Shown here: positions 1,199 through 59,605 of the stretch, in pieces
Layout: each line of letters begins with the position of its first letter
Position numbering within the stretch: position 1 is the stretch's first letter
Assembly: GCF_003634315.1 (NCBI RefSeq)
Contig: NZ_RBXL01000001.1
Coordinates: 728,501 to 792,500 of the forward strand
From: Thiocapsa rosea
GTDB taxonomy: Bacteria > Pseudomonadota > Gammaproteobacteria > Chromatiales > Chromatiaceae
DNA: 64,000 bases
Direction of reading: 5' to 3'
Notes under the pieces: generated by a model
What the model saw: only the letters and a program-made list of their open reading frames with translations
What the model was told of the DNA's origin: nothing
Databases searched by the model: none
Program-made: the position numbers and the translations under genes

Positions 1199-1454
1199 GG
1201 GTTTCTCCGATCCGGGCGGGGGCGTACAAGGGCCGCGACGCGAACGTGGGTGACGGCACAATGTCGCCTGGGCGGGCACACAGGCACCGACCTGACCCGT
1301 CGGAATTCTAAAGAAGCCGCGCTCGAGTGTCCATGCGCACCGTGATGACGAACGACGACAAGCCGCAGAACGGCAGGGCCGAAAAGTGCTCGCGCTGCCG
1401 GCAGAGGGGTCCGCAACGAGACCTGCGTCTCGGACGCAGTGCAAGAATCAGTAT
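1199..1454. other. carA upstream region without recognised gene
   Basis: Together with the repeat that follows, this gives about 440 bases between carA and trxC. No convincing ORF was seen. It should hold the carA promoter, since carA reads leftwards from 1198, but I could not pick a clear -35/-10 pair. Confidence 0.4.
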
Positions 1455-1645
1455 TAAACCGCGCCCGGCGCGGTATGCGATGTTTCGGATGGGATCGGCC
1501 AAGGCAGGCATGGCGGCCGTTGGAGCCGACGCGCTTTAATGTACTCGAAAATTTATCATTCTAAACCGCGTCCCCGCTAAGGGCTGTAGATGCACCAAAC
1601 CTCGAGCACACTCGAAAATCAGCATTTCGCCCCGGACGCGGTTTA
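1455..1645. repeat. composite intergenic repeat (module B + linker + module A)
   Basis: Module B spans 1455-1538 and module A spans 1562-1645, separated by an AT-rich linker. Module A has an 11-bp perfect terminal inverted repeat, AAACCGCGTCC at the left and GGACGCGGTTT at the right. Module B begins TAAACCGCGCC and ends in a weaker GACGCGCTTTA. The last TTA (1643-1645) is the TAA stop of trxC. The modules could fold as long stem-loops and end transcription from either side. Confidence 0.85.
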
Positions 1646-2077
1646 GAGCGCCTGCCGCGCCCAGGCGATGATCCCGTTCGTATCCATCGCCCCAGCCGTG
1701 CGCGCGACCTCCGCACCCCCGCGAAACAGCGCCAGTGTCGGGATGCTGCGGATGCCGAAACGCGCACCCAGGGCTTGAGCCTCCTCGGTGTTGATCTTGA
1801 CCAGACGCATGTTCGGCTCGAGCCGAGCGGCGGCGGCCTCGAAGGCCGGGGCCATCATCCGGCAGGGTCCGCACCAGGGCGCCCAGAAATCCACCAGAAG
1901 CGGCAGATCGCTGCGCGAGAGATGGCGCGCAAATCGGGGCTCGTCCAGCGCCAGCGGCTGGCCGAGAAACAGCTGACCGTGACACTTGCCGCATTTCGCG
2001 GCGGCACCGAGACGCTCCCGAGGAACCCGGTTGACCGCGTCGCAGGCGGGGCAAACAACGTGAAGCGATTCGGACAT
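1643..2077 (-). CDS. trxC: thioredoxin 2
   Basis: Cytosolic disulfide reductase with a zinc-binding N-terminal extension. The 144-residue product has two CxxC pairs near the N-terminus (CPAC and CGKC), typical of TrxC, followed by a thioredoxin fold with the active site WAPWCGPCRM and the cis-proline segment RSIPTLALF. An AGGAG lies about eight bases before the ATG. The stop codon lies inside the end of the adjoining repeat. TrxC is usually an oxidative-stress thioredoxin; no OxyR site could be identified. Confidence 0.95.
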   Translation of the reverse strand: MSESLHVVCPACDAVNRVPRERLGAAAKCGKCHGQLFLGQPLALDEPRFARHLSRSDLPLLVDFWAPWCGPCRMMAPAFEAAAARLEPNMRLVKINTEEAQALGARFGIRSIPTLALFRGGAEVARTAGAMDTNGIIAWARQAL

Positions 2078-2159
2078 GGCGATAACTCCTTGCGGTTGGA
2101 TCCGGATACCCGGCTCGATCGGCTTGAATCGGCCTGATCCGACAGTTATGTTCGACTGT

Positions 2160-2352
2160 TAAACCGCGCCCGATGCGGTATGCGTCGTTTGTTGGAAGGT
2201 CTCGGCCGCGCCAGCTCCGATGACTGTCGGAGCTGGCGCGGTTTAAGATATTCAAAGATATTCAATTTTAAACCGCGTCTCCATAAAGGTCGGAAACATC
2301 CGTGAGCCCGACACAACATGACAAAGACGCATGTCGCTCTGGGCGCGGTTTA
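2160..2352. repeat. composite intergenic repeat (module B + linker + module C)
   Basis: Module B (2160-2245) and module C (2269-2352) both begin TAAACCGCG and end CGCGGTTTA, separated by an AT-rich linker. This fills most of the space between the divergent trxC and cnoX genes. The interior of module C (ACGCATGTCGCTCTGGGCGC) resembles the copies at 47954 and 59439 read in reverse. Confidence 0.85.
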
Positions 2353-2392
2353 GATCCACGCCATCCGATCCGTCTTCAGGAGTGTCCCGATC

Positions 2393-7209: not shown

Positions 7210-7407
7210 GGATCATCTCCTTAGTCGCATCGGCTGCGGCTCGGATCGCTGTCGGCAGCCGGCGGAAGCGGGTCAATTTGAAACGCAAAGGCGCGAAGGA
7301 CGCAAAGGGTTTTCGCGGGCCGCCTCGACCCGATACCGGATAGAATGGCGCCCGCCCATGCCCTGATGTGTACTCAGTACGCGCCGGCTTTTCGGCGTCC
7401 CGGCATC
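7210..7407. other. intergenic region, no gene seen
   Basis: Together with the repeat that follows it separates the amidotransferase from the ABC operon by about 450 bases. It contains a GCGAAGGACGCAAAGGG stretch like common intergenic debris. No ORF was supported. Confidence 0.3.
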
Positions 7408-7600
7408 TAAACCGCATCCAGAGCGAGATGCTGATTTTCGAGTGAGTTCAAGGTTTCTTGCATCCACAGTCCTTAGCAGAGACGCGGTTTAAAATTTATA
7501 TATTTTTTAATACTTTAAACCGCGCCAGCTCCAGCGGTCATCAAGTCTGCCGGGGCCGACCCCATCCAAAAACATCGCATACCGCGTTGGGCGCGGTTTA
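7408..7600. repeat. composite intergenic repeat (module A reversed + linker + module B reversed)
   Basis: Module A reversed spans 7408-7491, from TAAACCGCATCC to GACGCGGTTTA. Module B reversed spans 7516-7600, from TAAACCGCGCC to GGGCGCGGTTTA. The linker is an almost pure A/T stretch. The B module is close to identical with the one at 48059-48143. Confidence 0.88.
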
Positions 7601-7657
7601 AATCACTGTTCAAGATCTCGTTTTTATTCACTCACCACTCACCACGATCGATCACCG

Positions 7658-20659: not shown

Positions 20660-20756
20660 ACTCTTGGAAATTTCGCCATCGCTTAGTCACAGAAACATCA
20701 CTTCGTGTTCTAATCGATCCGAAGCATCTCGTCTAGGGAATTAAGCAAACTGTCCC

Positions 20757-20835
20757 GGTAATTCCGGTAATTCCGGTAATTCCGGTAATTCCGGTAATTC
20801 CGGTAATTCCGGTAATTCCGGTAATTCCGGTAATT
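20757..20835. repeat. tandem array of the 9-mer GGTAATTCC
   Basis: Eight complete units (20757-20828) and seven bases of a ninth. The unit is found within the normal element end (CTGTCCCGGTAATTCC), so it looks like slippage expansion of a RAYT/REP end. It stands directly before the first 1.5-kb duplicated unit. Confidence 0.95.
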
Positions 20836-20856
20836 GTAATTCCGGGGACAGTTTAC

Positions 20857-21051
20857 CTAGTTCCGTTCCAGCAGCTCAAAGAGGTCCCGGGTGTTAGAGT
20901 CTCGTCGCGATGGTTTCGGCCCCGGCTTTTTTGGCTTGAGAGTGCGACCGAGGCGTTGCTCCAGAGTTTCGACAAAGGAATCCGGACCGAGCGGTCGACC
21001 GGTGCCGGCATGCGCGTGCAGAAGGTGGGCGATGTCCTTAGCGTCAAGCTC
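20857..21051 (-). pseudogene. RAYT transposase, C-terminal fragment (unit 1)
   Basis: Encodes DAKDIAHLLHAHAGTGRPLG and the following lysine-rich tail, which matches the C-terminus of the more complete copy at 34513-34983. The catalytic HUH half is missing; the sequence switches to unrelated DNA at about 21051. Confidence 0.75.
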
Positions 21052-21157
21052 GCCAGTTGGGCCACACAAGTGGGCAAAATGGGGGCACCGGAGAATGGGG
21101 TCAAGTATTGACCCCAGTTCTGATATCAAGGCGCCGGTCGCACGGTGGAGCAACTTG

Positions 21158-21358
21158 TTAGGTCAGCATTTTGCGTTCTTTAGCATATTCCCGTAATGCA
21201 CGGTTTACGGCCTCAGCGTTTGGGAAAAGCTTGTTGAGTTCTGGATCGATGAGTACGATATTGGTGCCTTCACGATATCGCCTAGCATATTTTCCACGAG
21301 TGCCGGACTTAATCAGTTCGGCAGGATATTCCGGTCGTATCTCTTGGTCATTCCTCAT
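21158..21358 (-). CDS. small antitoxin-like protein of a BrnT pair (unit 1)
   Basis: A 66-residue charged protein (EYPAELIKSGTRGKYARRYR, then LNKLFPNAEAVNRALREYAK). Proteins with the xGxRGKYxxRY and FPxxEAVNxAL patterns sit after brnT-type toxin genes, and a diverged relative follows the toxin at 40770. It overlaps the toxin reading frame by 11 bases. It is identical to the unit 2 copy and its partner toxin in this unit is frameshifted, so it may be an orphan. Confidence 0.65.
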   Translation of the reverse strand: MRNDQEIRPEYPAELIKSGTRGKYARRYREGTNIVLIDPELNKLFPNAEAVNRALREYAKERKMLT

Positions 21359-21618
21359 AGGCTTTACGCTCTGTAGGCGTCATGCGCCGCGCAGAGATGA
21401 TTCGTATAATCTCAGCGCGTTCGGTGAAGGAGACTACCAAATATCTACCTCCTTGTGATCTCCCAAACAATGAGGAAACGGTCTTCTCCTTGCGAATGAT
21501 CTGGATCGGATACGAAAGAGGACAGTTCGTCACCGAAAACCTCCGTTGCCTCCCAAAATGTGACACCATGCTTTCTGATGTTAGCGTCAGCTTTTGATTC
21601 ATCCCATTCAAAATCCAT
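21348..21618 (-). pseudogene. brnT-family toxin, frameshifted (unit 1)
   Basis: Same sequence as the intact gene at 22849-23118 except for an extra T in CAAACAATGAGG (plus strand, near 21470). The insertion separates the N-terminal half (DFEWDESKADANIRKHGVTF) from FGRSQGGRYLVVSFTERAEI. The product would be out of frame after about residue 50. Confidence 0.85.
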
Positions 21619-22357
21619 GATCACGTGTTGCCTGCTGACCTAACGTTGCCGCTCAGCCGTCGTGAGCAGAGCGAGCGCAGGCTGGAGGGGAATCCAGGGA
21701 CGGACCACGGTTTCTCGCCACACAGAATACTCTTTTCAGTCCACGCAAACTCTCGCGATTCGTGCCTCGACACCCACGAAACGTCGCCGCAGGCGACGCA
21801 ACGCACCTTATCCGGCGGAGATCAATCGAGCTGCGACCTTCCTCAGTCTCACCCTGCTTCCTCGTGCTCCTCGTCGCCTTGGCAACCTTCGCCTCGACCG
21901 CTGCGGAGTAGACAATTCCACGGGCAGTTTACTCAATTCCGGTTCGATGCTCCAACAGACGCATTCCAGCCACTCGATCCCGGCGACAGGATTTAGCTCA
22001 CCACAGCACTAGCCGCAATTGAGCAAACTGTCACCCGACATCAGGGCTTCCCCGTTAGCGCCAGGATCCGCCATCCTTCGAACCCTGCAAATCGCCCGGC
22101 GATCGCCCTCTGATCCGGAGCCCTCCCGGTCGCCCTGCCCCGCACTCTGCGCGTTCCGATATCCGGACATTGGCTATGTCGGCTTCCTGCTTGATAGCAA
22201 CGATCGTATGCATGTCCGAGCCTTGAACAGGATGCGCGTCCGACATGGAGAATCGACGGTGTCATTATAGGCGGTGATGGCGCTGGCGCCCCCTGCCGAC
22301 ACACGCATTGCGGTGACAGTGTGCTTCGGATACGGTGGAATTCCGGGGACAGTTTAC
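21619..22357. other. duplicated stretch with no recognised gene (unit 1)
   Basis: Contains only short ORFs without recognisable similarity, the longest being 22019-22270 on the plus strand and overlapping ones on the other strand. It includes two further element-end-like sequences (GGGCAGTTTACTCAATTCCG, GAGCAAACTGTCACCC), which suggests nested RAYT/REP debris. Confidence 0.5.
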
Positions 22358-22552
22358 CTAATCCCGTTCCAGCAGCTCAAAGAGGTCCCGGGTGTTAGAG
22401 TCTCGTCGCGATGGTTTAGGCCCCGGCTTTTTTGGCTTGAGAGTGCGACCGAGGCGTTGCTCCAGAGTTTCGACAAAGGAATCCGGACCGAGCGGTCGAC
22501 CGGTGCCGGCATGCGCGTGCAGAAGGTGGGCGATGTCCTTAGCGTCAAGCTC
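22358..22552 (-). pseudogene. RAYT transposase, C-terminal fragment (unit 2)
   Basis: The second copy of the fragment at 20857-21051 and nearly identical to it. Only the tail of the protein is encoded and no catalytic domain is present. Confidence 0.75.
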
Positions 22553-22658
22553 GCCAGTTAGGCGACACAAGTGGGCAAAATGGGGGCACCGGAGAATGGG
22601 GTCAAGTATTGACCCCATTTCTGATATCAAGGCGCCGGTCGCACGGTGGAGCAACTTG

Positions 22659-22859
22659 TTAGGTCAGCATTTTGCGTTCTTTAGCATATTCCCGTAATGC
22701 ACGGTTTACGGCCTCAGCGTTTGGGAAAAGCTTGTTGAGTTCTGGATCGATGAGTACGATATTGGTGCCTTCACGATATCGCCTAGCATATTTTCCACGA
22801 GTGCCGGACTTAATCAGTTCGGCAGGATATTCCGGTCGTATCTCTTGGTCATTCCTCAT
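22659..22859 (-). CDS. small antitoxin-like protein of a BrnT pair (unit 2)
   Basis: The 66-residue protein is the same as the unit 1 copy. Here the upstream toxin gene is intact and overlaps its start by 11 bases, so this is the functional operon of the duplicated pair. Confidence 0.7.
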   Translation of the reverse strand: MRNDQEIRPEYPAELIKSGTRGKYARRYREGTNIVLIDPELNKLFPNAEAVNRALREYAKERKMLT

Positions 22860-23118
22860 AGGCTTTACGCTCTGTAGGCGTCATGCGCCGCGCAGAGATG
22901 ATTCGTATAATCTCAGCGCGTTCGGTGAAGGAGACTACCAAATATCTACCTCCTTGTGATCTCCCAAACAAGAGGAAACGGTCTTCTCCTTGCGAATGAT
23001 CTGGATCGGATACGAAAGAGGACAGTTCGTCACCGAAAACCTCCGTTGCCTCCCAAAATGTGACACCATGCTTTCTGATGTTAGCGTCAGCTTTTGATTC
23101 ATCCCATTCAAAATCCAT
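22849..23118 (-). CDS. brnT: BrnT-family toxin
   Basis: An 89-residue RelE-fold-like RNase toxin with the BrnT pattern FEWDESKADANIRKHGVTFWEA, FVSDPDHSQGEDRFLLFGRS and a C-terminal IIRIISARRMTPTERKAYEE. Start set at the ATG at 23118; a TTG two codons upstream is also open. The antitoxin is not BrnA-like but the small RGKYxxRY protein downstream. Confidence 0.82.
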   Translation of the reverse strand: MDFEWDESKADANIRKHGVTFWEATEVFGDELSSFVSDPDHSQGEDRFLLFGRSQGGRYLVVSFTERAEIIRIISARRMTPTERKAYEE

Positions 23119-23851
23119 GATCAAGTGTTGCCTGCTGACCTAACGTTGCCGCTCAGCCGTCGTGAGCAGAGCGAGCGCAGGCTGGAGGGGAATCCAGGGA
23201 CGGACCACGGTTTCTCGCCACACAGAATACTCTTTTCAGTCCACGCAAACTCTCGCGATTCGTGCCTCGACACCCACGAAACGTCGCCGCAGGCGACGCA
23301 ACGCACCTTATCCGGCGGAGATCAATCGAGCTGCGACCTTCCTCAGTCTCACCCTGCTTCCTCGTGCTCCTCGTCGCCTTGGCAACCTTCGCCTCGACCG
23401 CTGCGGAGTAGACAATTCCACGGGCAGTTTACTCAATTCCGGTTCGATGCTCCAACAGACGCATTCCAGCCACTCGATCCCGGCGACAGGATTTAGCTCA
23501 CCACAGCACTAGCCGCAATTGAGCAAACTGTCACCCGACATCAGGGCTTCCCCGTTAGCGCCAGGATCCGCCATCCTTCGAACCCTGCAAATCGCCCGGC
23601 GATCGCCCTCTGATCCGGAGCCCTCCCGGTCGCCCTGCCCCGCACTCTGCGCGTTCCGATATCCGGACATTGGCTATGTCGGCTTCCTGCTTGATAGCAA
23701 CGATCGTATGCATGTCCGAGCCTTGAACAGGATGCGCGTCCGACATGGAGAATCGACGGTGTCATTATAGGCGGTGATGGCGCTGGCGCCCCCTGCCGAC
23801 ACACGCATTGCGGTGACAGTGTGCTTCGGATACGGTGGAATTCCGGGGACA
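23119..23851. other. duplicated stretch with no recognised gene (unit 2) and start of unit 3
   Basis: Matches 21619-22351. The last 13 bases (AATTCCGGGGACA) begin the third unit and form the 5' exon of the group II intron. Confidence 0.5.
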
Positions 23852-24286
23852 GTGCGGCCTGGCAAGGCTGCGTATTCTAGCGGGTGGGACCCCCGTCCGG
23901 GTAATCGCTAGCCACGAGCCCGGTATCGAGCCTTGCGGCGCGGCTGGTAACAGGCGCGTCGATGCGTAGGCACGAAAGCAGGCGAGGTGTAAGGGTAACG
24001 GGTGGAGCCGACCTTGAAGGTATTGAGCCCCGAAAAGAACATGGGTGAGTGCCGACGGGTTTGTCCCCCCGGCAGGCAACAGACCGTGACGCGCTGTGGC
24101 GAGTGGCACGGGAACTCCCCGGGGTCCGAGACCACATCGAGCCTGACATCGAGAGCACGTGGTCACCAGGGAGATCCGCGCATCGGTCCGCCGGAGGCGG
24201 GCACCCGTGAACAAGTGTAGAAAGCAAGAACACGGGCGGTGATGCGCGGAAGTCGGAGCCACCCATACGAGCTGTGACGCCCGGTA

Positions 24287-25699
24287 ATGCGGGTCGAGCA
24301 AAGGGGTGGCGGTTTGAGACAACGCAAGAGTGAAACACGGCCCTACACCGAGAGGACTCTGACCGTGACCAGCAAGCTTGAGCGTTTCACACTGAAGGCG
24401 CGCGCGGAACCGCACACGCGGTTCACGTCCCTGATGGGCATGTTGTTTGACCCGGAAGGGCTGCGCGAAAGCTTCGAGCGCCAGAACGGACGCAAGGCGC
24501 CCGGAGTCGACGGGGTCAGGAAGGACGACTATGCAGTGGGTCTGGACGCGCGTCTGGAGGATCTGTCGGCACGGATTCGCCGTCTGGGGTACCGGCCTCT
24601 GCCGGTGCGGCGCACCTATATCCCGAAAGGGGATGGCCGCTATCGGCCGTTGGGGGTGCCGAGCTTCGAGGACCGCCTGGTCCAAGATCGCCTCAGCCGC
24701 ATTCTTCAGGCCATCTGGGAACCGGAGTTTCGGGACTGTTCGTTCGGGTTTCGGCCGGGTCGCAGTGCGCACGATGCGCTGCGCCGGGTGGCCGAAGTGA
24801 TCACCAACGGGCGCACGCAGTGGTTCGTGGAGGCGGACATCAAAGGGTTCTTTGACCATTTGTCACACTCCCACCTCATGGAATTCCTGGAGCACCGCAT
24901 CGGCGATCCCAATCTGTTGCGGATCGTGCGACGGTTCCTGAAGGCCGGCATCATGGAAGACGGCGCGTTCACGGCCAGTGAAGAGGGCGCCCCGCAAGGG
25001 GGTCTGGTCTCGCCCGTGCTCAGCAATATCTACCTGCACTATGTGCTCGATCTCTGGTTCGAGAAACGGTTTGCGGGAATGTGCACGGGACGGGCGTACC
25101 TGATTCGCTACGCCGACGACTATGTGGCCTGCTTCGAGCACGAAGGCGATGCACGGGCCTTTCTCACCAAGATGACCGCACGTCTGGCGCAGTTCGATCT
25201 GGAGGTCGAGCCGAGCAAAACGGCACTGCTGCGTTTCGGCAGCGACCAGCTGGGTCGGACGCGGGCGGAGACGTCCGAACCGCGGACCTTCAGCTTCCTC
25301 GGCTTCACCCATTATGTCGGGAAGAGCCGGACGGGGCGTTTCGTCGTCGGGCGCAAGACCGACGGCAAGCGGGTGCGCAAGAAGCTCGCGCTCTTGAACG
25401 AGCGCTTGCGCGGGCTGCGGGCGCAAGGCGGACGGGCGATGGTGGCATACCTGATCCGGCATCTGCGCGGACACATCCAGTATTACGGTGTGAGCGGCAA
25501 TAGCCGGGGCGTATCGGGTTACCTCTACGCCGCGACGGGCCTGTTGTTCAAATGGCTCAACCGGCGCAGCCAACGGCGTTCGTTGACCTGGAAGCGCTTC
25601 TACGCGGTCATCAAGCCCATGCTCCCGACGGCGCGGATCATTCACGACCTCTACCCCGTCCCTTGGTGGAAGACTCAAGCTGGGAGCCGGATGGTGTAA
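24287..25699 (+). CDS. ltrA: group II intron reverse transcriptase/maturase
   Basis: The 470-residue intron-encoded protein helps splicing and copies the intron into new sites. RT motifs in order: KAPGVDGVRKDDY, IPKGDGRYRPLGVPSFEDRL, CSFGFRPGRSAHDAL, VEADIKGFFDHL, GAPQGGLVSPVLSNIYLHYVLD and the catalytic YADDYVACFE. The maturase X domain follows (RHLRGHIQYYGVSGN). There is no C-terminal HNH endonuclease. The last codons (AGC CGG ATG GTG TAA) fall inside domain V, so the ORF end and the ribozyme core overlap. A GTG before TSKLERFTL is an alternative start. Confidence 0.93.
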   Translation: MRVEQRGGGLRQRKSETRPYTERTLTVTSKLERFTLKARAEPHTRFTSLMGMLFDPEGLRESFERQNGRKAPGVDGVRKDDYAVGLDARLEDLSARIRRLGYRPLPVRRTYIPKGDGRYRPLGVPSFEDRLVQDRLSRILQAIWEPEFRDCSFGFRPGRSAHDALRRVAEVITNGRTQWFVEADIKGFFDHLSHSHLMEFLEHRIGDPNLLRIVRRFLKAGIMEDGAFTASEEGAPQGGLVSPVLSNIYLHYVLDLWFEKRFAGMCTGRAYLIRYADDYVACFEHEGDARAFLTKMTARLAQFDLEVEPSKTALLRFGSDQLGRTRAETSEPRTFSFLGFTHYVGKSRTGRFVVGRKTDGKRVRKKLALLNERLRGLRAQGGRAMVAYLIRHLRGHIQYYGVSGNSRGVSGYLYAATGLLFKWLNRRSQRRSLTWKRFYAVIKPMLPTARIIHDLYPVPWWKTQAGSRMV

Positions 25700-25716
25700 C
25701 ACTCCAAGTCCGGTTC
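25684..25716 (+). ncRNA. group II intron domain V (copy A)
   Basis: GAGCCGGAU pairs with GUCCGGUUC around a short inner helix. The AGC triad occupies the expected place at the 5' side of the stem. This is the catalytic core of the ribozyme and overlaps the maturase stop codon. Confidence 0.8.
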
Positions 25717-25857
25717 TGCGAGGAGCCGGGAACGAACCGTCGTATGGCCGAGATCATGTGGCACCGCCGGGAAACCAGGCGGCAAACAGAGAACACAAAC
25801 GTCAGCCTAACCGATGGCAAGGACCCGGCTTACTCTCCGTTTACCTAGTTCCGTTCC

Positions 25858-26420
25858 AGCAGCTCAAAGAGGTCCCGGGTGTTAGAGTCTCGTCGCGATG
25901 GTTTCGGCCCCGGCTTTTTTGGCTTGAGAGTGCGACCGAGGCGTTGCTCCAGAGTTTCGACATAAGGAATCCGGGCCGAGCGGGCGACCGGTGCCGGCAT
26001 GCGCGTGCAGAAGGTGGGCGATGTCCGTGGCGTCAGGCTCGCCGATGAAGCGATCCGAGTCGGATATCAGCTCCAACAGCGGACGCACGCTGACGAGATC
26101 GTCGTCCGCTCCTGCCAGATGGGCTCGGGCGCTCGGACCACGGCCAGTCCTCCGGTCGTGCACAGAGCCGCGCACGGACGGGACCAGGACCAGGATCAGG
26201 TGTGCACATGATTCGGCATGAGGCAGTAGACAAGCACCTGCGTGCCACACGCTCGACAGGACGTCGACAGCAAGCGCAGATACCCGGCGTAGTCCTCGTC
26301 GCCAAAAAACGTCCGCTGGCGTCGATTCCCGCGCTGGGTCACATGATGTGGAAACCCCGGGACGACTACTCGTCGGAGTCTCGCCATCGGCCGGTCAATC
26401 CCTCGCCACGGAAACGTCAC
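25858..26420 (-). pseudogene. RAYT (Y1/HUH) transposase pseudogene next to intron A
   Basis: The N-terminal part (26196-26420) reads VVVPGFPHHVTQRGNRRQRT and LVYCLMPNHVH, the HUH motif, and then is lost to a frameshift. The middle (SARAHLAGADDDLVSVRPLL) and C-terminal parts (FIGEPDATDIAHLLHAHAGT) are in other frames. A further insertion near 25963 (CATAAGG against CAAAGG) breaks the tail. Its element ends (GTTTACC on the left, AAATTGTCCCTGG at 26466-26478) survive. Confidence 0.85.
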
Positions 26421-26538
26421 TTCGTGTTCTAACCGATCCTAAGCATCTCGTCCAGGGAATCAAGTAAATTGTCCCTGGAACTGCCTGATTTCGGGCAACC
26501 GGGCGGCCCCGCTGCTCATAAGCGGCTTCCGTTGAGAC

Positions 26539-34417: not shown

Positions 34418-34558
34418 ATGACCATCATCGCCGTCGTTGACAACAAGGGCGGCAAGAACGGCATCGATCGCGAGGCCCAGGCCCTCGGCCACCAGGTCTC
34501 TGAACGGCCACCCTATCCGTTCTTCTTGCCCTTCGGCGAGGGAGCTGTTCCTTTCTGA
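34418..34558 (+). CDS. short ORF, probably a gene cut off by the RAYT element
   Basis: Forty-six codons, one base after the last antiporter gene. The first 30 residues (TIIAVVDNKGGKNGIDREAQ) look like a real N-terminal beta-alpha unit. The rest is the reverse complement of the RAYT gene's 3' end. Probably a 3'-truncated gene of the operon; family not recognised. Confidence 0.35.
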   Translation: MTIIAVVDNKGGKNGIDREAQALGHQVSERPPYPFFLPFGEGAVPF

Positions 34559-34983
34559 AAGGGTGTCGGCCCCGGCTTTTGTCGCTTGAGAGGGCGACCG
34601 AGGCGTTCCTCCAGAGCTTCGACAAAGGAATCCGGGCCAAGCGGGCGACAGGTGCCGGCATGCGCGTGCAGAAGGTGGGCGATGTCCGTAGCGTCAGGCT
34701 CTCCGATGAAGCGACGCCAGTCGGAGATCATATAGCGACAATGCGCCTCGCCCAGCGCGTCGCGCAAACCGAACTCATCGGTCGGGACCAGGATCAGGTG
34801 CACATGATTCGGCATGAGGCAGTAGACAAGCACCTGCGTGCCACACGCTCGACAGGACGTCGACAGCAAGTGCCGATACCCGGCGTAGTCCTCGTCGCCA
34901 AAAAACGTCCGCTGGCGTCGATTCCCGCGCTGGGTCACATGATGTGGAAGCCCCGGGACGACCACTCTTGGAAGTCTCGCCAT
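34513..34983 (-). CDS. RAYT (REP-associated HUH/Y1 transposase), internally deleted
   Basis: The 156-residue product starts MARLPRVVVPGLPHHVTQRG and contains the HUH motif in VYCLMPNHVHLILVP. Right after GEAHCRYM the sequence jumps to SDWRRFIGEPDATDIAHLLH. About 70 residues usual for the family (the GHLWQGRF/YVELNPVRA region, partly kept in the pseudogene at 26100) are missing, so it is probably inactive. It is transcribed towards the antiporter operon, and its outer end (GTAAAC at 35061) carries group II intron B. Confidence 0.8.
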   Translation of the reverse strand: MARLPRVVVPGLPHHVTQRGNRRQRTFFGDEDYAGYRHLLSTSCRACGTQVLVYCLMPNHVHLILVPTDEFGLRDALGEAHCRYMISDWRRFIGEPDATDIAHLLHAHAGTCRPLGPDSFVEALEERLGRPLKRQKPGPTPFQKGTAPSPKGKKNG

Positions 34984-35205
34984 CGGTCGGTCAATCTCTC
35001 GCCACGGAAACGTCACTTCGTGTTCTAACCGATCCGAAGCATCTCGTCTTAGGGAATTAAGTAAACGGAGAGTAAGCCGGGTCCTTGCCATCGGTTAGGC
35101 TGACGTTTGTGTTCTCTGTTTGCCGCCTGGTTTCCCGGCGGTGCCACATGATCTCGGCCATACGACGGTTCGTTCCCGGCTCCTCGCAGAACCGGACTTG
35201 GAGTG

Positions 35206-36618
35206 TTACACCATCCGGCTCCCAGCTTGAGTCTTCCACCAAGGGACGGGGTAGAGGTCGTGAATGATCCGCGCCGTCGGGAGCATGGGCTTGATGACCG
35301 CGTAGAAGCGCTTCCAGGTCAACGAACGCCGTTGGCTGCGCCGGTTGAGCCATTTGAACAACAGGCCCGTCGCGGCGTAGAGGTAACCCGATACGCCCCG
35401 GCTATTGCCGCTCACACCGTAATACTGGATGTGTCCGCGCAGATGCCGGATCAGGTATGCCACCATCGCCCGTCCGCCTTGCGCCCGCAGCCCGCGCAAG
35501 CGCTCGTTCAAGAGCGCGAGCTTCTTGCGCACCCGCTTGCCGTCGGTCTTGCGCCCGACGACGAAACGCCCCGTCCGGCTCTTCCCGACATAATGGGTGA
35601 AGCCGAGGAAGCTGAAGGTCCGCGGTTCGGACGTCTCCGCCCGCGTCCGACCCAGCTGGTCGCTGCCGAAACGCAGCAGTGCCGTTTTGCTCGGCTCGAC
35701 CTCCAGATCGAACTGCGCCAGACGTGCGGTCATCTTGGTGAGAAAGGCCCGTGCATCGCCTTCGTGCTCGAAGCAGGCCACATAGTCGTCGGCGTAGCGA
35801 ATCAGGTACGCCCGTCCCGTGCACATTCCCGCAAACCGTTTCTCGAACCAGAGATCGAGCACATAGTGCAGGTAGATATTGCTGAGCACGGGCGAGACCA
35901 GACCCCCTTGCGGGGCGCCCTCTTCACTGGCCGTGAACGCGCCGTCTTCCATGATGCCGGCCTTCAGGAACCGTCGCACGATCCGCAACAGATTGGGATC
36001 GCCGATGCGGTGCTCCAGGAATTCCATGAGGTGGGAGTGTGACAAATGGTCAAAGAACCCTTTGATGTCCGCCTCCACGAACCACTGCGTGCGCCCGTTG
36101 GTGATCACTTCGGCCACCCGGCGCAGCGCATCGTGCGCACTGCGACCCGGCCGAAACCCGAACGAACAGTCCCGAAACTCCGGTTCCCAGATGGCCTGAA
36201 GAATGCGGCTGAGGCGATCTTGGACCAGGCGGTCCTCGAAGCTCGGCACCCCCAACGGCCGATAGCGGCCATCCCCTTTCGGGATATAGGTGCGCCGCAC
36301 CGGCAGAGGCCGGTACCCCAGACGGCGAATCCGTGCCGACAGATCCTCCAGACGCGCGTCCAGACCCACTGCATAGTCGTCCTTCCTGACCCCGTCGACT
36401 CCGGGCGCCTTGCGTCCGTTCTGGCGCTCGAAGCTTTCGCGCAGCCCTTCCGGGTCAAACAACATGCCCATCAGGGACGTGAACCGCGTGTGCGGTTCCG
36501 CGCGCGCCTTCAGTGTGAAACGCTCAAGCTTGCTGGTCACGGTCAGAGTCCTCTCGGTGTAGGGCCGTGTTTCACTCTTGCGTTGTCTCAAACCGCCACC
36601 CCTTTGCTCGACCCGCAT
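35206..36618 (-). CDS. ltrA: group II intron reverse transcriptase/maturase (copy B)
   Basis: The 470-residue product is identical in sequence to the protein of copy A, with YADDYVACFE and the same C-terminus overlapping domain V. The reading frame is intact even though the intron RNA is split, so this copy could supply maturase in trans to copy A. The identity indicates a recent move. Confidence 0.92.
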   Translation of the reverse strand: MRVEQRGGGLRQRKSETRPYTERTLTVTSKLERFTLKARAEPHTRFTSLMGMLFDPEGLRESFERQNGRKAPGVDGVRKDDYAVGLDARLEDLSARIRRLGYRPLPVRRTYIPKGDGRYRPLGVPSFEDRLVQDRLSRILQAIWEPEFRDCSFGFRPGRSAHDALRRVAEVITNGRTQWFVEADIKGFFDHLSHSHLMEFLEHRIGDPNLLRIVRRFLKAGIMEDGAFTASEEGAPQGGLVSPVLSNIYLHYVLDLWFEKRFAGMCTGRAYLIRYADDYVACFEHEGDARAFLTKMTARLAQFDLEVEPSKTALLRFGSDQLGRTRAETSEPRTFSFLGFTHYVGKSRTGRFVVGRKTDGKRVRKKLALLNERLRGLRAQGGRAMVAYLIRHLRGHIQYYGVSGNSRGVSGYLYAATGLLFKWLNRRSQRRSLTWKRFYAVIKPMLPTARIIHDLYPVPWWKTQAGSRMV

Positions 36619-37009
36619 TACCGGGCGTCACAGCTCGTATGGGTGGCTCCGACTTCCGCGCATCACCGCCCGTGTTCTTGCTTTCTACACTTGTTCACGG
36701 GTGCCCGCCTCCGGCGGACCGATGCGCGGATCTCCCTGGTGACCACGTGCTCTCGATGTCAGGCTCGATGTGGTCTCGGACCCCGGGGAGTTCCCGTGCC
36801 ACTCGCCACAGCGCGTCACGGTCTGTTGCCTGCCGGGGGGACAAACCCGTCGGCACTCACCCATGTTCTTTTCGGGGCTCAATACCTTCAAGGTCGGCTC
36901 CACCCGTTACCCTTACACCTCGCCTGCTTTCGTGCCTACGCATCGACGCGCCTGTTACCAGCCGCGCCGTCCGGGTAGAGACAGCCATTACTGAGCCATC
37001 CCCCCCACA

Positions 37010-37044
37010 GATCCGGACGTGACCAATTCGGTCATCCGGTTCCT
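37010..37044 (-). ncRNA. domain V of the inner group II intron
   Basis: On the minus strand GAACCGGAUGACC pairs with GGUCACGUCCGGAUC around GAAUU, the usual short two-helix shape. The G-rich stretch and helix after it (TGGCTCAGTAATGGC, then CTCTACCC) would be domain VI. Confidence 0.7.
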
Positions 37045-37101
37045 CGGTTATCAGGAGCGCAACACCACTCCCGACACATAACTTCGCTACCCCGCCAACG
37101 A

Positions 37102-37605
37102 TCAGACGGCGTGGAGGATTTTGGGATTCGGCAACGGCAGACGTTCCAGCAATGCCGCGAACTTCTTCCATGGCATCGCTTTCTTGCTATTGCGCCGATG
37201 CAGCCAGTACCGCCAAGCACGACGTACGCGGTCCAGTACCGCCGCCATGGCGCGCGAGTTTCCACGCACGCCAAAGTATTGGTAGTGACCGCGCAGCTTT
37301 GAGCACAGCACGCGGTGCTGCTCCTCAATGTTGCGGTGCCGGTTTCTGCGGCACCACTCCCAGATCCCCTGGATCGTCTTCCTGACTTTCTTCCGTGCGG
37401 TCTTGCGCTTGATGACCCAAAATCCCCGCCTTGACCTCGCCCAGTAGTGGGTGAATCCGACAAAGTCGAATGTGTTGGCTCCCCGCCCGCGCATTTGTGC
37501 ACGCGCCGGCCGACTGAAATCGAGGAGGCGGCTCTTCTCTGGATGCAGTTGTAGTCCGTATTTCCCGAAGCGCTTCGGCAACACTTCCATGGCGCGCCGT
37601 GCATC
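37102..37605 (-). pseudogene. inner intron reverse transcriptase, C-terminal part
   Basis: Encodes the end of the RT thumb and the maturase domain: LPKRFGKYGLQLHPEKSRLL, FDFVGFTHYWARSRRG, KLRGHYQYFGVRGNSRAMA and VRRAWRYWLHRRN. It joins in frame to the N-terminal part at 39139-39960 across the 8-bp duplication flanking IS66. The joined protein would have about 441 residues. Confidence 0.88.
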
Positions 37606-37613
37606 GTTCTCAT

Positions 37614-39138
37614 GTAACTGTTCAGGTCGCCAACGGCCTTACGGCAAGCGCGGCATCGGAGGCTGACCCCGGAAGGTCATCACAAGGGCGGGATAGAGAT
37701 CGATCGACTGCTTGCGCAGGGTGGACAGATAGGAGCGTACCGTGGCGAAGGCCGCGGCACCTTCGGGCGCGCGGAAGCAGCCCGAGACCTTTTGCTTAAG
37801 CTTGGGCATGCGCAGGTCGCGTTCGGCTTGGTTATTGTCGAAGGGGACGCGCAAGTCCGTGACAAACCGCAGGACCTCGTCGCGGTGGGTGCGCAGGCGC
37901 GCGACCAGGTTGTAGGCCGGCGTCTGTTTGACCCGTCGTCGACTGCCCGGTGGCGGCAGGCGCTGCGGATGAAAGAAGACCCCGTCGGCGAGGATGGTGT
38001 CGTAACGGGTGAAGACGTCCTTCACCACCCCATCGGGGAGGGCTTCGAGGCCGGCCGCGCGGGCGGCGATGGTGGCGTCGTTGGCCTCGCACAGCAAGGC
38101 GATCAGCTGCTTGGGCCAGGACAGCACGGGGTCGGCTTCGGCGAGGGCGATGAGTTCGCGCAGGTGATGGGCATTGCAGAAGGCATGCCGTGCCGGGATG
38201 CTCAAGTACGCCCGCCAGTGATCGTGGACCAGGATGCCGCGAAAGCCGTCGAGCAGGCCGATGCCGGTCAACGCCTCGGCGCCGCGCTTGGCGTGCACGG
38301 CGTAAAACGTCAGCACCGAGGTGCTCAGCACATGCAGCCACTGCAGGGCGCCGGCGACGCGCATCCCCGTTTCATCGGCATGGGCCACGGCGCTGCGCAC
38401 GATGGATTGACCGATCGCCGCCACGGGTGCCGCCAGGCGCGCCGCCGCTTTGCGACCCATGTTGAGGAGGGTGGCCGGGGAGAGCGTGATCCCCGCCAAG
38501 ACACCGATCAGCTCGGCGCTGCGCCGATAGGGCAGGTTTTGGTAGTCGGTCAAATACACCGCCAAGGCCGACAGTCCGGGGCCGTATTGCACCGGTGCAC
38601 CGACCGCCTCCGGGAAGGCGCTGCGATGCACCTGGCCGCAGGCACACACGCCGGTCACGGCGCGATACTCGGTGACCTCGCGGTGCACCACCAGATCGAT
38701 GACCTGACGGCGCTCGGGCAAGACCTCGACAGCCAGCTCGGCGCAGTCGCGCCCGCAGCCGCAAAGCCCCTCCAGGGGCATAACGATGCGGTGCTCGGGA
38801 TCCTCGACCAGTGCTCGGGTGGCACCGGGATGATCCTTCTGACCACCGGGCTTCATGCCGCTGCGCACGCGGCGCGAGCGCGGCGGCGGTTTCTTGAACG
38901 GCGGGTCCGAGGACGGGGGCTTGCTGGAGTTGTGGCTATCCTTGCCCAAGCGCGCTTCCAAATCGCGGATGCGCTGGAGCAGTTCGGCGATCTGTTTCGC
39001 CTGCTCGGCGTTCTGCGCTCGCAACCGCGTCAGCTCGGCATCTTTGCTGTCGGGGCGGTCGGTTGTCGGTGGCGTCTTAGGCATGTCGCAAACTTACCGC
39101 CCCAGGGGATTGTTTGGCAAGCTGACCTGAACAGTTAC
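37614..39138 (-). mobile_element. IS66-family insertion sequence (1,525 bp)
   Basis: Terminal inverted repeats GTAACTGTTCAGGTC and its complement at the other end (15 bases, perfect). The 8-bp target duplication GTTCTCAT is present on both sides (37606-37613 and 39139-39146). It carries only the large transposase gene, as in the single-ORF branch of the family. It landed in the reverse transcriptase gene of the inner intron and is the youngest layer of the nest. Confidence 0.95.
37639..39084 (-). CDS. tnpC: IS66-family transposase (TnpC-type)
   Basis: A 481-residue DDE transposase. The N-terminal leucine-zipper-like helix (LTRLRAQNAEQAKQIAELLQ) is followed by a basic region KKPPPRSRRVRSG, a zinc-binding CGCGRDC cluster and the core DDE_Tnp_IS66 domain with VAHADETGMRVAG, LVHDHWRAYL, FCNAHHLRELI and FDNNQAERDLRMPKLKQKVSG. 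The reading frame is complete, so the element may be active. Confidence 0.95.
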   Translation of the reverse strand: MPKTPPTTDRPDSKDAELTRLRAQNAEQAKQIAELLQRIRDLEARLGKDSHNSSKPPSSDPPFKKPPPRSRRVRSGMKPGGQKDHPGATRALVEDPEHRIVMPLEGLCGCGRDCAELAVEVLPERRQVIDLVVHREVTEYRAVTGVCACGQVHRSAFPEAVGAPVQYGPGLSALAVYLTDYQNLPYRRSAELIGVLAGITLSPATLLNMGRKAAARLAAPVAAIGQSIVRSAVAHADETGMRVAGALQWLHVLSTSVLTFYAVHAKRGAEALTGIGLLDGFRGILVHDHWRAYLSIPARHAFCNAHHLRELIALAEADPVLSWPKQLIALLCEANDATIAARAAGLEALPDGVVKDVFTRYDTILADGVFFHPQRLPPPGSRRRVKQTPAYNLVARLRTHRDEVLRFVTDLRVPFDNNQAERDLRMPKLKQKVSGCFRAPEGAAAFATVRSYLSTLRKQSIDLYPALVMTFRGQPPMPRLP

Positions 39139-39960
39139 GTTCTCATTCTGAAAGCCGATGACGAAGTCATCGGCAAACCGTACGAGGAAGCAATGCCCTC
39201 TCATCCGTGGCTTGACTTCAGTCTCGAACCACTCATCCAGTACGTAGTGGAGATAGATATTCGCCAGCAAGGGGCTAATGACCCCGCCTTGTGGCGTTCC
39301 TTTATCGCTATAGCTGATCTCTTCTCCCTCGATGATGCCGGCATGTAACCACTGCCCGATCAGCCGAAGTATCCCACCATCATTGATCCGGCGCTGAATG
39401 AACTCCCTTAGCCAGCCCCAGTCAAGGTTGTCGAAGAATCCTGTGATGTCTCCGTCATAGATCCATCGAATACCGTGCGTCATGCACTGCTCGCGTAGGT
39501 CCGCGAGGGCGTCATGGGCGTTGCGCCCCTCCCGAAAGCCATAGGAGATCGGCAGGAAGTCTTGCTCCACGACCGCCCCCATCAGTATCGATACCGCTTT
39601 CTGGACGATCTTGTCTTCGATTTCCACGAGTCCGATCGGACGTTTCTTTCCGTTGTCCTTGTCGATCCACACGCGCTTGATCGGCGGGGCCACATAGCTC
39701 CGCGTCCTCAGCCGCCGGTGGAGGTCCTCGAGGTTGGCCTCCAGGTCCTTGGCGTAGTCCTTGACCGTGATTCCACTGAATCCCGGTGCGCCATCTCGAC
39801 GCAGTTCGTAGAAGGCCTCGCGTAGAAGGTCCAAGTCCATGCGGTGGATCAGGCTTGTGAAGACCCGATCCGGATGCTCGATCGCTTGCTCTGCGATTTG
39901 CCGCAGTGGTGTTTCGATGAAGATTGACCTCTGTGTGCCGCTCATCTTTCCCCACGACAA
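39139..39960 (-). pseudogene. inner intron reverse transcriptase, N-terminal part
   Basis: Encodes RT motifs GAPGFSGITVKDY, KRPIGLVEIEDKIVQKAV, SYGFREGRNAHDAL, YDGDITGFFDNLDW, GTPQGGVISPLLANIYLHYV and the catalytic FADDFVIGFQN (FADD in place of YADD). After the target duplication the frame runs into IS66 and stops. This enzyme is clearly different from the outer intron's protein. Confidence 0.9.
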
Positions 39961-40769
39961 TACGTTATGCCCGGCGTCGCCTTCCCTACAGCGGGTCCCT
40001 TGGGTCTCGGTTCCCCGCCTTCTCGGCTCTCCAACTTTCAGCCTTCGGTACTATGCTCAGCTAAGACGACCGTTTCTCCATCTCGGGTTGCTTCGCCTCA
40101 AGCTCGCTTCCCGATACCTTGTGCTCGTTCGCTTGCGTTTGTGTCCCCTCGCGGGTTCGCTGCCCGGGTGCGACGATGACCCTGGCCGCGCCTGGCCCGA
40201 CTCTTGACCGGCGTGCTCACCGGTGCTCTCCACAAGGAGATGACGGTCCTCTCAAGTTCCCAGGCTACCCCTGTGTGTACATGCCCCGCTCGTCGATCCC
40301 GGTGGTGTCCTCGTCGCTCGCCCTAGCGCTCCAAGGACTACAGCCTTCCGGCGCCTTGATGCCGTCGGCTTTCCCAAGCTCGCGCTCGGTTATCCTCATG
40401 GACCACAACCATATCTTTTCGGAACTCAGTCACGCGGCCTGCACACTCGCTACACCTGGCTTCATACACACCCTTGCGGGTTATGCACGCAGGTTCGCTA
40501 CAGAGTCGGTGGCTAGCCGCCTCTCATGGGAATTGGGTCACCCCTCACCCACTGGGTAACGCTATCCAATTTCACGGTCTCCGTTCCGATTCCAAGGATC
40601 TGAATTTAACTTGACACGACAAGGCTCGATACCGGGCTCGTGGCTAGCGATTACCCGGACGGGGGTCCCACCCGCTAGAATACGCAGCCTTGCCAGGCCG
40701 CACTGTCCCTGGAACTCGCGCACACCCGCCGTGGCTAGCCAGCCCCAAACCGCGCGCGTAATACCCTAT

Positions 40770-41036
40770 TTATTGCTCCGAGCTCGACGCTGGGTTTTGG
40801 GTCGGTTCTGAGCCAATTGTTAGACCAGCTGACGCTTTGGCTATTCTGATAAGGGAGAGCAATGCATCATTCACGGCCTCCTCTGTCGGAAATGCCTCGG
40901 CGACTTCTGGCCTCAGCAGGACCAGGTTATGCGATTCAACGTACGAGTCGTAGTATTTCCCGCGTACACCAACGCCTAAGTCTTCCCTTTTGTATTCGGA
41001 ACGCATGTCGTCGTCTTCGACCTTAGCTTTCTTCAT
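40770..41036 (-). CDS. small antitoxin-like protein of a BrnT pair
   Basis: An 88-residue relative of the 66-residue proteins at 21158 and 22659: EYKREDLGVGVRGKYYDSYV, then EAFPTEEAVNDALLSLI. It overlaps the truncated toxin frame by 14 bases. The C-terminus (EPTQNPASSSEQ) is longer and may have been changed by neighbouring element debris. Confidence 0.65.
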   Translation of the reverse strand: MKKAKVEDDDMRSEYKREDLGVGVRGKYYDSYVESHNLVLLRPEVAEAFPTEEAVNDALLSLIRIAKASAGLTIGSEPTQNPASSSEQ

Positions 41037-41259
41037 AGATTCTCTTCTCGTGTTTGCTCATTTTGCGTGCACTGATGATTCTCGTGTCGCCGCCTCGTTC
41101 AACGTGGCAAACAATCAGAAATTTCCCCGTTCGCGAGACGCCGAAGGTAAGGAAACGCCTCTCGCCGGTGGAATGATCGGGATCGTCGAACGTCAGTGCC
41201 ATCGGGTCACCAAAGACAGTCCCGGCCAGCCTTGCTCGTAACTCCGGCCATCGTGGCAC
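41023..41259 (-). pseudogene. BrnT-family toxin lacking its N-terminus
   Basis: From about residue 15 the sequence is BrnT-like (VFGDPMALTFDDPDHSTGER, RIISARKMSKHEKRIYEES), but the first 30 or so family residues with the WDxxKAxxNxxKHG motif are missing and replaced by MPRWPELRARLAGT. The break is just before the REP-like palindrome at 41280. It may still be translated from the ATG at 41259. Confidence 0.65.
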
Positions 41260-46148: not shown

Positions 46149-46227
46149 GAAACCGCATCCAGAGCAAAATGCGTCATTATTCATGTCGCATTTGGCTTCG
46201 GAGATGTCCTTGATCTCGGAGGCGGAC
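46149..46227. repeat. module C-type intergenic repeat, right end lost
   Basis: Begins GAAACCGCATCCAGAGC and keeps ATGCGTCATTATTCATGTCG and CTTGATCTCGGAGG. The closing CGCGGTTTA is missing because the module runs into the xthA stop at 46228. Confidence 0.7.
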
Positions 46228-47953: not shown

Positions 47954-48143
47954 TAAACCGCGTCCAGAGCGAAATGCGTCATTTTTGCGTTGTGTTCAGC
48001 GTCGGAGACTTCCTTGATCTTGGAGAGACGCGGTTTAAATTTTAGCTTTCTTATACCTTAAACCGCGCAGGCTCCAGCGCTCGTCAAGTCTGCCGGGGCC
48101 GATCCCATCCAAAAGCATCGCATACCGCGTTGGGCGCGGTTTA
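47954..48143. repeat. composite intergenic repeat (module C reversed + linker + module B reversed)
   Basis: Module C reversed (47954-48037) runs from TAAACCGCGTCCAGAGCG to GAGACGCGGTTTA. Module B reversed (48059-48143) runs from TAAACCGCGC to GGGCGCGGTTTA. Both have perfect nine-base ends. The B module is nearly the same as the one at 7516-7600. It fills the murU to GCS-like gap. Confidence 0.88.
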
Positions 48144-48169
48144 AGTCAACCCTGACGGGGGGGCAAGGC

Positions 48170-59193: not shown

Positions 59194-59438
59194 CCTCTTT
59201 TACGCCGCAGCTGCGCTCGGACAATCAGCAGGGGACACGCCGGCCACGAATGCAGGGTGAGCGTGAAGAAACGGCTGGGAAAACAGGCGCGGAAGACGTG
59301 GCGGCGAGACTTTCGAGCCGGCGCAAACGGCAGACTGAAGAAGAACGCGGCAACGGGGGAAGTAAACGAGGGGTCGCCGGCCGACCCGACAAGAGCTGAA
59401 TCCGGGCGACGCACCGCCCCGCCCGTTTCCCCACGGGC

Positions 59439-59605
59439 TAAAGCGCGGCCAGAGCGACATGCGTCATTTTCATGTTGCGCTTGGCTTCGGAGATGCCCTC
59501 GATCTCGGTGAGACGCAGCTTATAATTTAATATATTTCAATACTTTAAACCACGCCGACTCCGACGGTCGTCGGAGCCCGCGCGGCCAAGCCAATCCAAC
59601 TTGCG
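59439..59605. repeat. decayed composite repeat (module C reversed + linker + module B reversed)
   Basis: Module C at 59439-59524 (TAAAGCGCGGCCAGAGCG ... GAGACGCAGCTTA), an AT-rich linker, and the start of module B at 59546 (TAAACCACGCCGACTCC), which fades by about 59605. Same order and spacing as at 47954-48143. Confidence 0.7.

Follow-up and report, generated by a model that had tools for sequence, protein, structure and literature searches.

An EBS1-matched group II intron nested within domain I of another group II intron in Thiocapsa rosea

The stretch of DNA analyzed here, referred to as the window, comprises 64,000 nucleotides of Thiocapsa rosea (C1:728501-792500; the source genome, G000, consists of two contigs and 6.11 Mb) and contains a group II intron that is interrupted by a second group II intron, which is itself split by an IS66 family insertion sequence (Table 1). 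The outer intron was recognized by self-comparison of the window and lies on the minus strand (40703..35067) in two pieces of 84 and 1903 bp. A preliminary description of this DNA had stated that these pieces sum to the length of an intact copy in the window, copy A, and that 3650 bp had been inserted without loss or duplication. Alignment of the interrupted copy, copy B (40703..40620 and 36969..35067), with copy A (23852..23935 and 23936..25838) gave 0 differences over 1987 positions. The insert (40619..36970) enters directly after nucleotide 84 of the outer intron and both of its ends are fixed, with no sliding possible, and thus both statements were borne out. The anatomy and the junctions are direct observations. 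One intron lies entirely within another, the arrangement known as a twintron, and the three-level nest proposed for this bacterial twintron stands, the levels being two introns and one insertion sequence. The proposed order of events, that is, outer intron, inner intron and then IS66, follows from the nesting itself.

Table 1. Features of the nest and of copy A, in window coordinates
Feature	Position	Strand	Basis or remark
Outer group II intron, 5' piece, 84 bp, begins GTGCG	40620..40703	-	Alignment to copy A
Outer group II intron, 3' piece, 1903 bp, remainder of D1 through D6, with RT	35067..36969	-	Identity to copy A
Inner group II intron including IS66, 3650 bp; begins TCGTGTC, ends CTACCCGGA	36970..40619	-	IS66-free copy is 2118 bp, L017:5099-7216
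IBS1 of inner intron, GCCTTG, final six bases of outer 5' piece	40620..40625	-	
Inner D1 core, RF02005	40287..40535	-	98.0 bits
Inner EBS1, CAAGGC	40353..40358	-	
Inner RT, N-terminal piece	39139..39960	-	Aligns to residues 1-276 of open copy
Inner RT, C-terminal piece	37102..37613	-	Aligns to residues 272-441 of open copy; stop position from open frame in L017
Inner D5-D6	36970..37044	-	RF00029 on second copy L017:7142-7217, transferred by alignment
IS66 family element, 1525 bp, within inner RT frame	37614..39138	-	Ends and repeats
IS66 transposase	37639..39084	-	PF03050, NF033517
8-bp target repeat GTTCTCAT	37606..37613	.	Flanks IS66
8-bp target repeat GTTCTCAT	39139..39146	.	Flanks IS66
Outer RT, 470 aa, open	35206..36618	-	RVT_1, TIGR04416
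Outer D5-D6	35067..35223	-	RF00029 on identical copy A 25682..25838, 31.8 bits
Outer EBS1, TGTCCC	36838..36843	-	
Outer IBS1, GGGACA, within 5' exon	40704..40709	-	
Copy A, intact outer intron without inner one	23852..25838	+	Self-comparison, alignment

The outer element displayed the features of a group II intron. Domain I (D1) of copy A matched Rfam RF02005 with 136.4 bits (gathering score 49), its reverse transcriptase (RT) matched TIGR04416, the NCBIfam group II RT/maturase model, with 322.4 bits (cut-off 300), and a pairing between exon-binding site 1 (EBS1) and intron-binding site 1 (IBS1) was present, while domains V and VI (D5-D6) matched RF00029 below the gathering score of 40 (E 0.0016). 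The insertion of copy A is evidenced by two empty sites, GGGGACA^GTTTACC (the caret marks the insertion point), at 20844 and 22345 in a 1.5-kb tandem repeat, and these two empty copies together with the GUGYG consensus fix the outer ends as GTGCG and CTCTCC. The repeat itself occupies 20835..23853 and 25839..26043; its first two units keep the empty site and copy A entered the next occurrence of the repeat end. The genome holds four full outer copies, namely A, B, copy C, an outer intron alone at C1:5764142-5766128, and the outer layer of a second nest. The target TTCC(A/G)GGGACA^GTTTAC is common to A, B and C and is absent from the second nest. Because three of the four copies are located at dispersed repeats of one kind, both layers appear to home mostly into multicopy, expendable DNA.

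The inner intron was found twice in the genome, each time inside the outer intron at the identical base. The second nest (C1:2303014-2307118, in locus L017) lies ~ 1.5 Mb from that in the window, its inner intron lacks IS66, and both of its RT frames are open (441 aa inner, 470 aa outer). The inner D1 scored twice the gathering score with RF02005 (Table 1), and the inner D5-D6 gave 38.8 bits with RF00029, just below the gathering score of 40 (E 3e-5). The inner RT, which runs uninterrupted in the second nest (L017:5759-7084) from a TTG start, matched TIGR04416 with 339.6 bits and Pfam RVT_1 with 123.8 bits, and the Pfam maturase domain GIIM with 16.4 bits, under the cut-off of 23. The best matches by sequence among solved structures include LtrA, 7uim and the GsI-IIC RT. 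The RNA and protein models thus agreed with the earlier assignment of both layers to group II, and the two introns represent distant lineages, because their RTs share only 39% identity. In the window copy the inner RT frame is cut by an IS66 element with an IS66 transposase, terminal inverted repeats and 8-bp target repeats; the D1 and D5-D6 matches remain intact. The expectation that the frame would rejoin upon removal of IS66 and one 8-bp repeat was correct, since the second copy, which lacks the interruption, has an unbroken frame and the sole length difference between the inner copies sits upstream of it.

The junction was next sought elsewhere in two ways, by a pattern allowing at most one mismatch and by a DNA query of 142 bases spanning the junction, each over 210 genomes (the 'order' set of genomes was the same size, 210, as the 'family' set). 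The DNA query scored at most four candidates per genome, so that the count of nests is a lower bound. Both searches returned the same nested loci, at least six in number: the two in T. rosea, one in the genome of another species of the same genus (G123) and three in a genome of another genus (G028). Several outer copies, in two genera, thus carry the same inner lineage at one and the same site. In G123, an outer 5' end of 82% identity runs into the initial 16 nt of the inner intron, beyond which the DNA is different and by eye represents an IS200-like element. The three G028 loci have outer 5' ends of 84-88% identity, which continue into inner-intron sequence (82-89% identity) for ~ 348, 512 and 440 nt before homology is lost; the surrounding 9-10 kb at each locus gave no RT match. 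One of them, L180, contains an outer-type intron that starts within the inner relic at AACAGGGCCA^GTGCGG. At the matching position L179 reads AACAGGGCCAGG unbroken, and the EBS1 of the incoming intron (TGGCCC) fits GGGCCA. Three group II introns are stacked in L180, outer within inner within outer, although the 3' ends have been lost. Neither intron was present in any of eight junction-pattern loci compared from other genera (L181-L188); the listed matches extending a few bases beyond the junction, and G122:C356, were not nested, and the remaining one-mismatch matches were not inspected singly.

Some observations on relatives of the two introns were made along the way. A relative of the inner intron occupies another target in G154:C37 (L219), and inner-like starts at L219 and at L197 (G002:C111; by eye CCCTAC^) lie at further, different targets outside the outer intron. 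In G139, which gave 17 matches to the outer 5' end, outer-type introns stand head to tail (L105, L111, L176 and L177; CTCTCC^GTGCGG), with an EBS1 that misfits the end of the preceding intron. Tandem short outer-type introns comprising part of D1 and D5-D6, without an RT match, are present in G028 (L178:6569-8705).

The basis of target choice was studied by reading EBS1 of the inner family from a fixed position in D1 (GCCGAC plus 5 nt), with G-U pairs allowed. At 13 of 13 inner-family junctions tested, EBS1 paired at all six positions with the six bases preceding the intron (two with one G-U), and swapped partners gave 1-3 of 6 pairs. Three unrelated sets of EBS1 and target were represented: CAAGGC with GCCTTG in the two nested T. 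rosea copies and the three in G028; TCGTGA with TCACGA in five copies in G036; and GGATTT with AAATCC or AAATTC in L076-L078. L030/L074, L075 and L197 are without the parts needed and lie outside the 13. The G036 target is a 17-mer, CCCAAAATCTTTCACGA, that belongs to a repeat (e.g. L114-L143) and occurs 42 times. Among 30 such places read, four held an intron and 26 were empty with a clean join, TTTCACGA^GGT in 25 and ^AGT in one. The EBS1 of the nested lineage is thus unlike that of its relatives, in a way that suits the outer D1. This match, read directly at the junction, is positive evidence for the intron-like homing that had been put forward for the insert. Repeats of 2 kb present in multiple copies are well known to cause misjoins, and the assembly is known here from its sequence alone; nevertheless, an assembly artefact joining repeated introns is extremely improbable, as three genomes from two genera share the junction and a misjoin would not create an EBS1-IBS1 match there.

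The target of the inner intron is well conserved in the outer family, GCCTTG being present at nucleotides 79-84 in 46 of 64 distinct outer 5' ends, and its covarying partner, AGGC, lies ~ 35 nt downstream. The outer EBS1, whose reading requires the 3' side of the loop, was readable in 28 of the 64. Six pairs with the exon were formed in 21 (exon sequences GGGACA, GGGCCA, GGGTCA, GGGACG, GGGGCA and TTCATT), five pairs in two and three pairs in one; the remaining four paired at one position of six, and each of these immediately follows another intron. The mean over the 11 distinct pairs was 5.1, against 3.8 for swapped partners, a contrast that is modest because G-U was allowed and the sequences are alike. 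An outer EBS1 placed after an earlier GCCGAC was rejected, as it paired no better than swapped partners did (mean 3.6 versus 3.7 of 6 over 18 distinct pairs). Also rejected was a pairing of outer nucleotides 12-17 (CAAGGC) with the outer intron's own GCCTTG, by which the inner EBS1 would have imitated the partner strand of the outer intron: the 5' strand varies (CAATGT, CAAAGC and others) while GCCTTG is constant.

Comparison of inserts with empty sites placed the 5' end of the inner family two bases ahead of a GUGYC motif (TCGTGTC, TTGTGTC or TTGTGCC) and the 3' end at CTACC(C/T)GGA or TTTACCCGGA. A start at GTGTC, two bases further in, was considered and rejected. The extra bases are absent from the empty outer site and from 26 of the 26 empty G036 places, and EBS1 pairs with the six bases preceding TCGTG. 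Moreover, a GTGTC...GGAC reading requires an additional target base, and GCCTTGTC occurred in 0 of the 41 listed outer rows without an inner intron. An A stands at the usual branch place, followed by six bases, matching the Rfam consensus, and may serve as the branch site. The non-consensus termini mark the inner element as an atypical member of group II and do not exclude it from the group, because exceptions are on record (PMC4424553).

The junction lies in a stem-loop of the outer D1, in which GCCU-AGGC pairs below, UU G follows, and an 11-pair helix above carries a tip that is mostly GUAA or GCAA. Pairing was counted over 25 distinct outer sequences and 375 cells (all but the nested row), the rows being hand-picked loci among the listed outer introns, plus L003, L005 and L180. 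On a structure drawn from one sequence guided by the Rfam alignment, which favours it somewhat, 88.5% of the cells paired, and sliding the columns by 1-3 lowered this to 24-42%. A subset of 22 rows (from 28 in total, without two duplicates, two rows of L195, L208 and the nested row) gave 90.9%. Both sides changed in nine of the 15 pairs, a value reached in two of 500 shuffles, and in 37 cells, reached in none of 500, while the upper-helix pair at columns 24-35 failed in 15 of the 25 rows. In this model the insertion point of the inner intron is between UUG and the first upper-helix pair, in the D1 scaffold rather than in the loop of domain IV (D4). Such a location suggests sequential splicing, with the inner intron removed before the outer.

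Taken together, these data very probably describe a bacterial group II twintron in which a mobile, RT-encoding lineage has been retargeted to a conserved site in the ribozyme core of another intron. In the proposed mechanism, the EBS1 of the inner lineage matches the conserved D1 site of the second mobile family, and the inner intron would enter the outer by RNA-guided reverse splicing and reverse transcription, that is, by retrohoming, which is presumably how the present copies moved. It could probably splice out again, restoring the outer D1. IS66 later split the inner RT frame of the window copy, the sister copy keeping both frames open, and the window copy might receive help in trans from the sister's RT.

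Several points weigh against this reading. Splicing and mobility of the layers are predictions from the sequence. The D5-D6 scores of the two introns (38.8 inner, 31.8 outer) fall slightly short of the Rfam gathering score, and the inner family ends in GGA and so departs from GUGYG...AY termini. The 13 junctions are not independent (two plus three nested, five in G036 and three in L076-L078), and in L076-L078 the start was set by likeness to other copies and not by an empty site. The nests in G123 and G028 are truncated relics, the 3' junction being visible only in the two T. rosea copies. Finally, the outer introns of the two nests, B and T2, differ at 32 sites, of which 30 fall in one block (nt 305-634), and outside it they differ at 2 of 1657 positions, which is comparable to the 3 of 2118 between the inner copies (p = 1).

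The last point bears on the number of insertions. The inner copies differ by two substitutions and a single-base length difference, and T2 is a mosaic, resembling copy C over nt 305-634 and copies A and B over 747-1272 except at site 973. Counting all of the differences between B and T2 as proof of independent insertion (p 1e-7) was rejected, as it rests on this one mosaic block and p rises to 1 without it; two independent insertions are therefore not proven. One interpretation is that there was a single nesting event in the lineage of this genome and that the second nest is a product of homologous recombination or gene conversion among outer introns, or of movement of the whole twintron. The near-identity of the inner copies, the equal closeness of the outer introns outside the block and the mosaic, which implies that exchange between outer introns does occur, all fit this explanation. 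However, the flanks of the two nests are unrelated beyond about seven target bases, which argues against plain duplication, movement as a unit would presumably require an outer ribozyme that works with a 2-kb insert in D1, and the nests in another genus, with outer introns of 84-88% identity, call for more events or old descent. On balance a single event is possible, if somewhat doubtful. A further group II D1 match (149.8 bits) was noted ~ 3.2 kb before the second nest (L017:1606-1822; C1:2299605-2299821).

It could also be that the nests are dead debris, relics in which neither layer now splices or moves. The IS66 element in the window copy and the truncation of four of the six nested loci are what would be expected of relics. 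However, both RT frames are open in the second nest, and the identity of the outer introns A and B over 1987 bp, with the closeness of the inner copies, implies recent activity or recent conversion, so that this explanation appears unlikely.

Returning to the retargeted twintron, the observations can be joined in a wider proposal, which we regard as evenly poised between right and wrong: the inner lineage would be a hyperparasite with a dedicated homing site in the conserved D1 stem-loop of another mobile family, would follow that family across genera, would have to splice cleanly for the host intron to keep moving, would be invaded in turn by its host, as in G028, and would remain mobile even though its 5' boundary precedes GUGYC by two bases. 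A pair of introns that each encode an RT, with one seated in the other's folding core, provides a natural system in which to ask if a retroelement can live on another by way of obligate sequential splicing, and how changes in EBS1 give a group II intron a new target. The controls lie within one genome, namely the outer intron alone (A and C), a nest with open frames and a nest broken by IS66. The constant two-base 5' extension across a multicopy family is a second testable oddity, concerning splice-site choice.

The surroundings of the nest contain other repeated elements. A Y1/IS200-like gene (Pfam Y1_Tnp 22.9 bits, just below the cut-off of 23) and partial copies of it flank outer introns A and B (34513..35091, 25839..26475 and 20688..21054 in the window); we take it to be of the REP-associated transposase type. 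Just upstream of the nest on the minus strand are a BrnT-type toxin gene (41023..41259; Pfam BrnT_toxin 64.1 bits) and a small neighbouring frame without a Pfam match (40770..41036), and by eye frames similar to this pair occur in the 1.5-kb repeat. A dispersed repeat of ~ 50-200 bp, 73-89% identical and in both orientations, was seen at 1445..2353, 7406..7611, 46150..46221, 47954..48148 and 59438..59600.

Introns within introns are known, and occurrence at the same spot at several places and in two genera is unusual. The present case was not described in the titles and opening abstract lines of the listed papers on Chromatiaceae group II introns, twintrons, nested introns, or IS66 with group II introns, which does not establish its absence from print. 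The comparisons below draw on PMC2882425, PMC4424553, PMC4649490 and PMC8919778. Repeated nesting of group II introns, several layers deep, is attributed to Methanosarcina acetivorans (Dai and Zimmerly 2003, as cited in PMC4424553 and PMC4649490). The repeated site-specific homing of group II introns into group II introns is shared with the present case, although in M. acetivorans, to judge by the title, it is into related intron open reading frames (ORFs), whereas the target here is a stem-loop in the ribozyme of an intron that is only distantly related. The two-base 5' shift also has precedents, because fungal rRNA introns splice 1-33 nt, and C.te.I1 of C. tetani 8 nt, upstream of GUGYG (PMC4424553). 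In those introns EBS1 pairing is altered and EBS2 and branch site motifs are lost, whereas here a multicopy lineage carries a constant 2-nt offset and an A at what would be the usual branch distance.

Thermosynechococcus elongatus provides a case in which EBS-guided insertion has recurred at a single D4 site of another intron family (PMC2882425). As there, the present inner introns lie at one conserved site of another mobile family after EBS divergence, and inner copies that are identical while the outer introns differ, a feature of T. elongatus, have their likeness here. The T. elongatus site, however, lies between two start codons and its inner intron has no ORF, whereas here the site is in D1 and the inner intron has its own RT. 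Another similar arrangement is that of the Trichodesmium erythraeum twintron Tr.e.I7/Tr.e.I8, in which an RT-encoding intron lies in D1 of another and sequential splicing was demonstrated (PMC4649490). In both cases the two group II introns encode RTs and are only distantly related, and the inner one lies in D1 of the outer. The Trichodesmium twintron, as described there, is at one site, in a protein-coding gene and in one genus, whereas the present nests occupy several loci outside known coding genes in two genera and the inner 5' end lies two bases ahead of the GUGYG-like motif. The present case is a variant of these known arrangements, in which an RT-encoding intron with a matching EBS1 is found repeatedly in the D1 core of a second mobile family, in two genera and with one reciprocal nest.

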